Shown here: positions 4,440 to 29,110 of the stretch, one piece after another
Layout: each line of letters starts with the position of its first letter
Position numbering within the stretch: the stretch's first letter is position 1
Source: Bdellovibrio sp. GT3
GTDB lineage: Bacteria > Bdellovibrionota > Bdellovibrionia > Bdellovibrionales > Bdellovibrionaceae
NCBI RefSeq assembly: GCF_037996765.1
Contig: NZ_JBBNAD010000005.1
Coordinates: 1,148,001 to 1,212,000, forward strand
Length of the DNA: 64,000 bases
Direction of reading: 5' to 3'
The notes under the pieces: model-generated
What the model was told of the DNA's origin: nothing
What the model saw: only the letters and a program-made list of their open reading frames with translations
Database searches by the model: none
Translations under genes and position numbers: made by a program

Positions 4440-4462
4440 AGAAAATAGCCTTCCTCGAAAAT

Positions 4463-4484
4463 CCGGCTGGATTACTCCAGCCGG
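4463..4484 (+). promoter_or_regulatory. Stem-loop after murF
   Basis: CCGGCTGG pairs perfectly with CCAGCCGG around the loop ATTACT, 24 bases after the murF stop. It lacks a T tract, so it is more likely an RNA processing or stability element, or a weak terminator, than a full intrinsic terminator. A TATAAC -10-like hexamer (4491-4496) follows and might start a separate transcript for the outer-membrane protein. Confidence 0.5.
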
Positions 4485-4496
4485 CTGACATATAAC

Positions 4497-4518
4497 AGTC
4501 CTCATTATTAGGAGGACT
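4497..4518 (+). promoter_or_regulatory. Hairpin that sequesters the ribosome-binding site of the next gene
   Basis: AGTCCTC (4497-4503) pairs perfectly with GAGGACT (4512-4518) around an 8-base loop. The 3' arm contains most of the Shine-Dalgarno sequence GGAGG (4511-4515), and the ATG follows at 4520. Folded, the RNA would hide the ribosome site, which suggests translational control by temperature, a protein or an sRNA. If transcription starts from the TATAAC box at 4491-4496, the 5' arm would be largely missing and this control would vanish. Confidence 0.5.
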
Positions 4519-4519
4519 A

Positions 4520-5542
4520 ATGAAACAAAATCTTTCTCTACTTATCGCAGCTCTTACTTTCTCTGCGATGCAAGCTGGGGCGCAAACAAGTTCTGCAAAG
4601 ATGGGTGCGGCTACTTCCACAAACACTTCGACTTCTAAAATCGAAGATCTTAAAAAGCCGACAGAAAAAATGAAGGACGTGGACGAGGAAATCACTGATG
4701 CTCGTATGCGTGCAACTTTGGGTTCTAAATCCAAATGGTCTTTCAAATCTGACCTTTCTTATTCCGGTGGTTCTGTTAACGATCCATTTGGCGCGATCCG
4801 TCCTAATTACCGTGCATCTGCAACGGCTGAATCTTTGACTTACCTTTCCGGTAACGTGGGTGTGAACGTTCGTATCACTCCTAAAGACAGCATCAGCTTC
4901 GGTTCTGGTTTGACGATCAACGATCCATTCCATGGCGATATCACAAAACCAGCATCTGACTCTCGTAGAGGCAGAGCTGCAAATGCGGTACTTCCTCGTT
5001 ATGAAATGTCGACTCCTTTCGTAAGCTGGAGCCGTGGTTATAAAGCGTTTGGCACTCAAATGAGCACCAGCGTTTCCACGACTTATTACACTGATGAAGA
5101 CACAAGCAAATACCAAAACTATTTGGGTAACGTCTCTTTGTCTCAAGTTTTCCTGGCAAATTTCGGAACATCAAAATGGAACGGTGGCGTGAGCGTAAGC
5201 TTGGCTAAGTACCTTTACAATGGTGAGTTGTCTGACACAGGTTACGTGGCAGCACAAGCTGCTGGCAGATACATGCGCTCTGATATCAGTGGGGGTTTGT
5301 TCCCATTCATGCAGTACACGTTCAACGACACGTACTCTTTCAGAACTGTTTTCGGTTACTTCCAATTCGCGAAATACGAAGTTAACGACAGATACGTTCA
5401 ATTGGAACCATACCAATCTGTGGGCGTAGGTATCTCTATCACTCGTGACATCTACTTGTACCCGAACATCCAGTTCACACCTAAAGACGTACGTGACGAC
5501 AGAACGAACGTAGCTCTTTCCACGAACATCAACTTGTTCTAA
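4520..5542 (+). CDS. Outer-membrane beta-barrel protein of unknown function
   Basis: 340 residues. The signal peptide (KQNLSLLIAALTFSAMQAGA, probable cleavage after residue 21) is followed by a Ser/Thr/Lys-rich linker of about 45 residues and then alternating polar/hydrophobic strands rich in aromatic residues. It ends in phenylalanine ('STNINLF'), the usual C-terminal signature for assembly into the outer membrane. I do not recognise a named family. It sits between murF and mraY and is followed after 5 bases by an SRPBCC gene. The codon choice looks optimised (many CGT, GGT and TCT codons), which suggests high expression. An abundant structural or porin-like role is an inference. Confidence 0.8.
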   Translation: MKQNLSLLIAALTFSAMQAGAQTSSAKMGAATSTNTSTSKIEDLKKPTEKMKDVDEEITDARMRATLGSKSKWSFKSDLSYSGGSVNDPFGAIRPNYRASATAESLTYLSGNVGVNVRITPKDSISFGSGLTINDPFHGDITKPASDSRRGRAANAVLPRYEMSTPFVSWSRGYKAFGTQMSTSVSTTYYTDEDTSKYQNYLGNVSLSQVFLANFGTSKWNGGVSVSLAKYLYNGELSDTGYVAAQAAGRYMRSDISGGLFPFMQYTFNDTYSFRTVFGYFQFAKYEVNDRYVQLEPYQSVGVGISITRDIYLYPNIQFTPKDVRDDRTNVALSTNINLF

Positions 5543-5547
5543 TAAAT

Positions 5548-6030
5548 ATGTCTGGATCGAAGTTCATTCCTCCCTCCAAAAAGGGGGAGGATTCCAACAG
5601 TCAGGAAATCAGCATCACGATCACAGTGAAGGCCACCGCTGCAGAAATCTGGCGGGCTCTGACTGATACGGACGATCTGGAAAATTGGTGGGGCGACGAC
5701 GTCGCCCTTGAACCAAAAGTCGGCGGTAAATTCCGCGAAGCCTGGGAAGATGACGAGGGCCAAGAGCAACTCGCTTCCGGCAAAGTCCTATCTTTAGTTC
5801 CTAACAAATCCATCACCTTTACCTGGCGCGAGAAAAACTGGGATGCAAAAGCCATCACAGAGTGTTCTTACGTGATCGAAGACAAAGGTAAAACGCGCAC
5901 GATGACCGTTACCCATAAGGGATGGGACGTGTTCCCGGACAAGCAGGGCGCAAAACTTCTTAAAGATTTCCAGCTTGGTTGGAAATACCACATGCAAGAG
6001 CTTAAAGCTTATCTGGATGACGAAGGCTAA
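5548..6030 (+). CDS. SRPBCC (AHSA1/START-like) domain protein
   Basis: A 160-residue soluble protein. It contains 'ITVKATAAEIWRALTDTDDLENWWGDD', 'FREAWED', 'LVPNKSITFTWRE' and a C-terminal helix 'WKYHMQELKAYL'. This is the standard layout of the Activator-of-Hsp90-ATPase-1-like branch of the SRPBCC superfamily, whose members bind hydrophobic ligands or act as co-chaperone-like proteins. No catalytic residues can be named. The ATG lies five bases after the stop of the outer-membrane protein, with no clear ribosome site of its own, so it is probably translated by coupling. Its link to that barrel or to cell-wall synthesis is unknown. Confidence 0.85.
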   Translation: MSGSKFIPPSKKGEDSNSQEISITITVKATAAEIWRALTDTDDLENWWGDDVALEPKVGGKFREAWEDDEGQEQLASGKVLSLVPNKSITFTWREKNWDAKAITECSYVIEDKGKTRTMTVTHKGWDVFPDKQGAKLLKDFQLGWKYHMQELKAYLDDEG

Positions 6031-6336
6031 GCATTCGTGCTGTCAATCTAGTTGCCGTTTCATTTAACTCACCTTTGGAAGCATGTATCTGATTGTGATG
6101 TTTCCCGTTCATTCACTCTGAAGTTCCCACCGAGCTGTCTCACTACGAAGCGAATATAAAGTGCGAACCGCAGGTTCCCTTGCAAATGATATTAGGGAAC
6201 CTTCACGTACTTCGATCAAAACTTTTGCAACGTCAGATCCTGAACACCTTAAACCCGGTTTAAACCGTTATCGACTCGAACAAACGCTGTGCATGGCTTT
6301 TGCTTTACTCCTTATTGAATTCAATTTGGAGGAATA
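6031..6336 (+). other. Long intergenic leader of the curlin-repeat gene, with inverted repeats
   Basis: No convincing gene is seen here. Bases 6172-6180 (AGGTTCCCT) and 6194-6202 (AGGGAACCT) form a 9-bp hairpin. Bases 6249-6263 form the palindrome TTAAACC-C-GGTTTAA, overlapping a second perfect palindrome CGGTTTAAACCG at 6256-6267. Overlapping palindromes of this kind are typical of a regulator binding site. A good ribosome site, TTGGAGGAATA, abuts the ATG at 6337. No clear sigma-70 promoter could be picked out by eye. Confidence 0.5.
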
Positions 6337-6885
6337 ATGAAAACCACAGCAACTATTGTGATCTTAGCCACAGCTTTACCATTCATGACAGCTTGTTCGC
6401 AGCTGGGTGTAGGCGCAGAAGTGGAGTTTGGTTCATTCAGAAGTGCGCAGGAAATCATTTCTGTCGTGGATGGCGAAGAGCCAGGGACTACATCTGATGA
6501 ATCCATTCCGGAAGTGATTGATGAGATCCCGGTTATGCCAGGCGAAGTAATCGATGACGACGGGAATCTGGTAACCGACGATGGCGAAGTGATTTTGCCA
6601 GCGTGTGATGCCCTTCAACAGGCCGAAGCTAACTTTATATTAAGCCAAGAAGGTTCCAGCAACGTGGCGGGTGTCAGCCAAGTGGGTAATGCCAACTCTG
6701 CAACGATCTACCAAAAAGGTGACAGCAATACAGCCTGTGTGGTTCAAGTTGGCGACAATAACCAAGCAAACGTTCAGCAAACCGGCTCAAACAACTCTGC
6801 ATCTGTAAGTCAGCAAGGTAATGGCAGCTCTGCGAACATCATCCAATCCGGTGGCAGCAACTCTGCAGTGGTTAACCAACACTAA
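6337..6885 (+). CDS. Curlin-repeat lipoprotein
   Basis: 182 residues. A lipoprotein signal peptide ends in FMTAC (acylated Cys20), followed by an acidic, low-complexity spacer rich in Glu, Asp, Pro, Val and Ile. From residue 103 to the C-terminus there are seven consecutive 11-residue units of pattern x-Q-x-G-x-x-N-x-A-x-V/I, for example SQVGNANSATI, VQVGDNNQANV and QQTGSNNSASV. This is the half-repeat that forms one strand and turn of the CsgA/CsgB amyloid fold. Curlins are normally secreted soluble subunits; here the repeats are tied to a lipid anchor, like a membrane-bound nucleator. No csgA, csgE, csgF or csgG gene is seen nearby. It has strong terminator and leader boundaries and so is probably its own transcription unit inside the dcw cluster. 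Confidence 0.85.
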   Translation: MKTTATIVILATALPFMTACSQLGVGAEVEFGSFRSAQEIISVVDGEEPGTTSDESIPEVIDEIPVMPGEVIDDDGNLVTDDGEVILPACDALQQAEANFILSQEGSSNVAGVSQVGNANSATIYQKGDSNTACVVQVGDNNQANVQQTGSNNSASVSQQGNGSSANIIQSGGSNSAVVNQH

Positions 6886-6896
6886 TAGTACGCACT

Positions 6897-6945
6897 AAAA
6901 GGTACGGACTTACTTAGCAGGTAAGGCCGTACCTTTTATCTTTTT
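6897..6945 (+). terminator. Rho-independent terminator after the curlin-repeat gene
   Basis: An 11-bp stem, AAAAGGTACGG (6897-6907) with CCGTACCTTTT (6927-6937), is extended by a short inner stem (CTTAC/GTAAG) and followed by a T-rich tail (atctttttaa). It separates the curlin-repeat gene from mraY. Confidence 0.88.
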
Positions 6946-7067
6946 AATTTTTAGTAATGATATCAATAGCTTATAAATTTCCCATTGCATTTTAAAGCGC
7001 CGATGTGCTAAACCCTTAAAGTTCCAAGCAAATATCAATTTCCAAGGAATTAGGGGAATCGCACATC

Positions 7068-9645: not shown

Positions 9646-10014
9646 GTGATCCGTATTCTCGTTGTTTCCTTGTCGTCTGTATTCTTGTTGTCTGCTTGTG
9701 CATCCGGGACATTTAAAGCGCGCCAGGAACAACGTGATAAATTGGCTGCCAACACGGGCATGTATTGCAACTTTGTGAGTGGTGAGCAGTTTCCGGATAT
9801 CGAAGTGGAATTGAGCATGGAAATGGCAAAACGCTGTGATTCCTCCCGTGCTTTCTCAATCACCAATTTTAAAAATTCTTCCAACGAAAATGGTGTCGTG
9901 TACTGCTGCTCTATGTCGGGCCGCGCACAAACTGCGGTTAACAAGCGCACGGAAGCCAGAGCCGCTTCCGAGAAAAAAGATTCAGGTGCTGAAGTGGTGG
10001 AAGCCGCTCCCTAA
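9646..10014 (+). CDS. Small lipoprotein of unknown function within the dcw cluster
   Basis: 122 residues starting at GTG, placed by an excellent AGGAGG five bases upstream. The signal peptide ends in LLSAC (acylated Cys18). The mature protein has a Lys/Arg/Gln-rich start, then Cys residues at about 40, 67, 86 and 87, which could form disulfides in the periplasm, and a charged, alanine-rich tail. No family is recognised. It lies between the murD terminator and ftsW, in the same direction as the cell-wall genes, and may share a transcript with ftsW through a weak hairpin. A role at the envelope is likely from the anchor; a role in division is speculation. Confidence 0.75.
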   Translation: MIRILVVSLSSVFLLSACASGTFKARQEQRDKLAANTGMYCNFVSGEQFPDIEVELSMEMAKRCDSSRAFSITNFKNSSNENGVVYCCSMSGRAQTAVNKRTEARAASEKKDSGAEVVEAAP

Positions 10015-29019: not shown

Positions 29020-29110
29020 AGCCAGCCTCCTTGAATACTTAAATTCTAGAAGGAGGCGGCGGGCTTGTGCACATTAAGACATGTGTTTGTTCACAGGTAC
29101 GGACTTACCT

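Follow-up and report, generated by a model that had tools for sequence, protein, structure and literature searches.

In a published survey, about 2% of the genomes bearing CsgA were without CsgG (PMC10192328), and known curlins with the full core pattern polymerise (PMC10192328). In E. coli, CsgA is the main fibre subunit and CsgB the minor subunit and nucleator; CsgB lacks a lipobox, is kept in place by CsgF/CsgG and serves as nucleator for the CsgA of its own operon. Two further described proteins are relevant here: the R15.5 curlin of Pontibacter korlensis (PDB 8c50), which comprises 15.5 repeats of about 23 residues on a centrosymmetric N-x-A-x-V/I-x-Q core (PMC10192328) and is not described as a lipoprotein, and WP_315962764.1, a curlin-associated protein from a Pseudomonas plasmid, encoded beside csgE, csgF, csgG and csgH genes and with no lipobox seen in its sequence. 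Curli have also been reported to protect E. coli against B. bacteriovorus (PMC12584612).

Curlins nearly always accompany a dedicated exporter. In the 64,000-nucleotide stretch of Bdellovibrio sp. GT3 analysed here (the window), a curlin domain is instead encoded behind a predicted lipid anchor and under selection, as a minimal, putatively membrane-tethered curlin without CsgG. The gene and its parts are as follows.

6337-6885, plus strand: curlin-repeat lipoprotein gene, 182 aa plus stop (open reading frame, Pfam PF07012, three orthologs in the same slot)
6328-6332, plus strand: Shine-Dalgarno-like GGAGG (sequence)
6337-6396, plus strand: signal peptide and lipobox FMTAC, with Cys20 as predicted lipidation site and Ser at +2 (read by eye; FMTACSQL invariant in four orthologs)
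6397-6627, plus strand: acidic linker, residues 21-97, predicted to be disordered, with conserved Cys90 at 6604-6606 (charge count, pLDDT, ortholog lengths)
6628-6882, plus strand: curlin repeat domain, residues 98-182, eight 11-residue strand-turn units, with conserved outward Cys134 at 6736-6738 (register, shuffles, AF2)

A curlin repeat domain behind a predicted lipid anchor

An earlier note on this DNA had described seven unbroken 11-residue curlin units preceded by a lipobox and an acidic spacer, a description that our analysis bears out. Seven QxG motifs follow one another at a pitch of exactly 11 residues (residues 104, 115, 126, 137, 148, 159 and 170), whereas 20,000 shuffled versions of their domain contained no chain at this pitch longer than three. 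The Curlin_rpt profile of Pfam (PF07012) matched with 68.5 bits (E 4.5e-19) against a curated cut-off of 20.7, which places the protein in the curlin-repeat family. Each strand carries the repeat unit N-x-A-x-V/I-x-Q-x-G-x-x, in which N, A, V/I and Q are the inward positions of curlin-repeat strands. Counting a degenerate first strand (ANFILSQ) and a last one (NSAVVNQ), eight beta-strands are predicted, in the order ANFILSQ, NVAGVSQ, NSATIYQ, NTACVVQ, NQANVQQ, NSASVSQ, SSANIIQ and NSAVVNQ, with xGxx turns between them. At the N-terminal end, inspection by eye found a bacterial-lipoprotein signal, MTAC followed by SQ, with Cys20 as the predicted anchor and Ser at +2; from residue 20 to residue 97, 20 acidic residues face a single basic one.

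Of the two E. coli curlins, CsgB is the nearer in sequence (65.9 bits; 43% identity over 82 residues), with CsgA at 52.8 bits and 34% over 86 residues. With CsgB the protein shares curlin repeats, a short and fixed repeat number and, in the role proposed below, the position of a membrane-associated template; it differs by its lipobox, acidic linker and extra cysteines, and by the lack of csgG, csgE, csgF and a second curlin. The best sequence match in the PDB was R15.5 (E 3.3e-26), whose centrosymmetric core recurs here, albeit in four repeats of that length rather than 15.5. WP_315962764.1 showed 47% identity over 81 residues.

Predicted fold

Single-sequence AlphaFold2 models of the full protein contained eight strands at an 11-residue pitch, with residues 1-97 mostly unstructured (pLDDT <50). 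Modelled by itself, the repeat domain reached a pLDDT of 82 and a pTM of 0.72, and a short helix was predicted at residues 88-92, around Cys90 and ahead of strand 1. The core residues of strand 1 are bulky (F/L), and the C-terminal end consists of a canonical curlin strand followed by one single residue. By motif alternation, Cys134 faces outward on strand 4, so that a disulfide stapling the cap would be possible.

Structural searches returned CsgA, a member of the same repeat family, as top neighbour, non-significantly in Foldseek (E 0.27) and as the CsgA fibril (PDB 8enq) in VIA-align, where a Z of 8.2 went along with a poor rmsd of 8.5 and the handedness of the model is uncertain. SufB/SufD and similar beta-helix proteins superposed at an rmsd of about 2 in VIA-align. 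The predicted solenoid of eight strands, to which the model adds an N-terminal cap, is credible, though its handedness in this model is not.

Purifying selection on the gene

Orthologs from three further genomes share 69-75% identity with the copy in the window, and all four proteins keep the eight strands, the lipobox Cys, Cys90 and Cys134, with linker length being the variable part. Most ortholog pairs are saturated at synonymous sites, but in the closest pair the repeats differ by 30 synonymous changes and 1 that is non-synonymous, the figures for the linker being 18 and 1. Among the repeat columns, 3 of 32 inward-facing ones were variable compared to 12 of 24 outward-facing ones (Fisher p 0.0016). 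All these numbers are small, and the genomes behind them are four related ones. Given the synonymous excess, the low inward variation and the conserved strand number and cysteines, the gene, as judged from its sequence evolution, is a functional one under purifying selection whose predicted packed core is constrained.

Distribution and genomic slot

Of 369 genomes sampled from the phylum, 4 had the curlin lipoprotein gene, and no curlin was found elsewhere in that set. Its carriers are the window's genome and the three whose mraY resembles that of the window most (97-98% identity); they form a small group of close relatives that is probably predatory, its gene content fitting Bdellovibrio-type predators. 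In all four, the gene sits between an AHSA1-type gene and mraY.

4440-7067 (also loci L043-L047): variable murF-mraY gap, holding the curlin gene and two other genes in the curlin-bearing clade
4520-5542: outer-membrane-protein-like gene, between murF and the curlin gene
5548-6030: AHSA1 gene, after 4520-5542 and likewise between murF and the curlin gene

The location that the earlier note had assigned, between murF and mraY within the cell-division cluster, thus holds as a position in the gap, although two genes separate the curlin gene from murF. In the five other genus members examined, unrelated genes occupy the slot. One of these (G017; mraY 96% identical, genome only 88% complete) keeps both upstream genes and has the slot filled by unrelated ORFs, which by eye are an MCP-like ORF and one of 195 aa. 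The four more distant members carry still other ORFs there, e.g. CBS-domain-like or solute-binding-like ones as judged by eye. Because slot ORFs differ in this way across the genus, the murF-mraY gap is a variable slot and placement in the dcw cluster is no ground for a cell-division function; the curlin gene looks like an insertion into this slot.

Several sources and partners were considered and rejected. A phage origin found no related protein in phage records or viral contigs. Grafting of the repeats onto an older lipoprotein was discarded, as the N-terminal half yielded weak matches outside the four genomes (E 0.03 or higher). What seemed a distant homologue (E 0.006), in a genome from another genus of the family (G182), is a chance match, its frame encoding by its sequence a protein of the flagellar hook/rod type. 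Nor is 4520-5542 a dedicated outer-membrane partner, its family being genus-wide and also found in curlin-less genomes.

Paralogs of 4520-5542 occur in every genus member, and the copy here seems to have been relocated beside murF in the curlin-bearing clade. Further along the cluster, murD and ftsW have a small lipoprotein-like gene between them (9646-10014), and the other members of the genus that were compared have it at this position too.

A wider scan of bacterial genomes recovered a single distant relative, a curlin from Salinisphaera encoded near an ORF that is CsgG-like by eye; the scan used short exact patterns, which lipid-anchored curlins elsewhere could escape. In the open-access literature, we found no paper that joins curlin, lipoprotein and Bdellovibrio.

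An orphan curlin and its possible roles

That no csg export genes were in view had been stated for the immediate surroundings, and a search of the genome for these and for other curlins had been suggested. The absence extends genome-wide and to the three curlin-bearing sister genomes: CsgG, CsgE and CsgF gave no match over the family cut-offs in any of the four, with E. coli as positive control, in which they were detected. All matches of the curlin family search in the genome fell within 6337-6885; hence there is no second curlin and, for a CsgB-like role, no CsgA partner was found by this search. In the absence of CsgG, CsgE and CsgF, a CsgF/CsgG tether is missing as well, a predicted lipid anchor being present in its place.

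Tentatively, and at somewhat less than even chances, we favor the protein as a functional orphan curlin lipoprotein that would act as a CsgB-like template, held on the envelope by its lipid and serving as an adhesin for further copies of itself or for foreign curli. After Sec export, it would be lipidated at the predicted Cys20, and Ser at +2 would permit transfer to the outer membrane. The acidic, presumably disordered linker of about 75 residues would form a tether carrying the predicted eight-strand beta-solenoid. Its anchor-proximal end may be capped by the short helix around Cys90 and the bulky first strand, and a putative Cys90-Cys134 disulfide might staple this cap. The distal canonical strand, in turn, would stay open to pair with the edge of another curlin. 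Such a polarity, with a capped membrane end and an open outer end, is suggested by the bulky strand 1, the helix preceding it and the uncapped canonical last strand. The protein would accordingly resemble CsgB as a membrane-held template, with lipid replacing CsgF/CsgG as the tether. As a second curlin is missing from the genome, the partner would be either further copies of the protein itself, giving envelope oligomers or cell-cell adhesion, or a foreign curlin such as the curli of prey. Fibre nucleation, which the earlier note had raised alongside attachment to prey, would need a partner of this kind. Outer-membrane sorting, surface display, polarity, amyloid formation and the ligand are all features that we infer. 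Against a CsgB-like template speaks that this is the lone curlin of the genome, leaving nothing obvious to nucleate; the structural match of the model to CsgA is likewise weak, and the two conserved extra cysteines suit a closed, stapled fold no less than an open one.

The chief rival, which we consider rather unlikely, is a periplasmic non-amyloid solenoid, i.e. a disulfide-stapled, N-capped structural or binding lipoprotein of the envelope that forms no fibres. The genome without a CsgG/CsgE/CsgF exporter, the cap-like helix around Cys90, the fixed strand number in four orthologs and the two conserved cysteines besides that of the lipobox are all consistent with it. Yet the last strand, at the C-terminus, is canonical for curlins and uncapped, and the full curlin core pattern, which polymerises in known curlins (PMC10192328), has been kept.

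For the CsgB-like template, a prey-curli partner is worth considering because of the protection against B. bacteriovorus that curli reportedly give E. coli (PMC12584612). That the predator displays a lipid-tethered curlin strand which engages the protective curli of its prey, as a docking site or as a block to their growth, nonetheless appears improbable, at about one chance in eight. A specialised receptor, whose open strand would be used specifically on the curli of prey, to bind curliated cells or cap their fibres, is also doubtful, being given roughly one chance in seven: the reported protection by curli (PMC12584612), the CsgB-like sequence, the missing CsgA and the very patchy distribution argue for it, while the other genus members do without a curlin gene. 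The locus bears on whether predators use amyloid against curli, a reported defence of prey (PMC12584612). A functionless remnant of a curli system that was lost or had come by lateral transfer would account for an orphan of csg genes, as in the surveyed CsgA-bearing genomes without CsgG (PMC10192328), but is highly improbable in view of the intact frame, the strong purifying selection seen between the two closest orthologs, the conserved lipobox that E. coli CsgA and CsgB both lack, and the want of any other curlin in 369 phylum genomes.

Flanking hairpins and a repeated palindrome

Two inverted repeats flank the gene.

6172-6202, plus strand: leader hairpin with a perfect 9-bp stem (inverted repeat; recognisable in all four orthologous leaders by alignment)
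6896-6938, plus strand: terminator-like hairpin (z -5.5; copy of a palindrome repeated in curlin-bearing genomes)

Of the palindrome-rich leader and terminator that had been described for the gene, the terminator held up, whereas the leader proved weak: it contains the one perfect stem, and its overall fold is not an unusual structure (z -1.0). A leader RNA element was rejected on the basis of this fold and of an Rfam search without matches near the gathering score, and a stem sequestering the Shine-Dalgarno sequence (6305-6334) was dismissed because the leaders of the sister genomes do not share it.

The palindrome AAGGTACGnnCTTAC...GTAAGnnCGTACCTT (6896-6938; also 29094-29108) looks like a clade-specific intergenic repeat, with 14-31 arm matches in each of the four curlin-bearing genomes and near absence (0-2 arm matches) from three other genus members. 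A half copy lies at the stop codon of the AHSA1 gene in three of the four curlin-bearing genomes.
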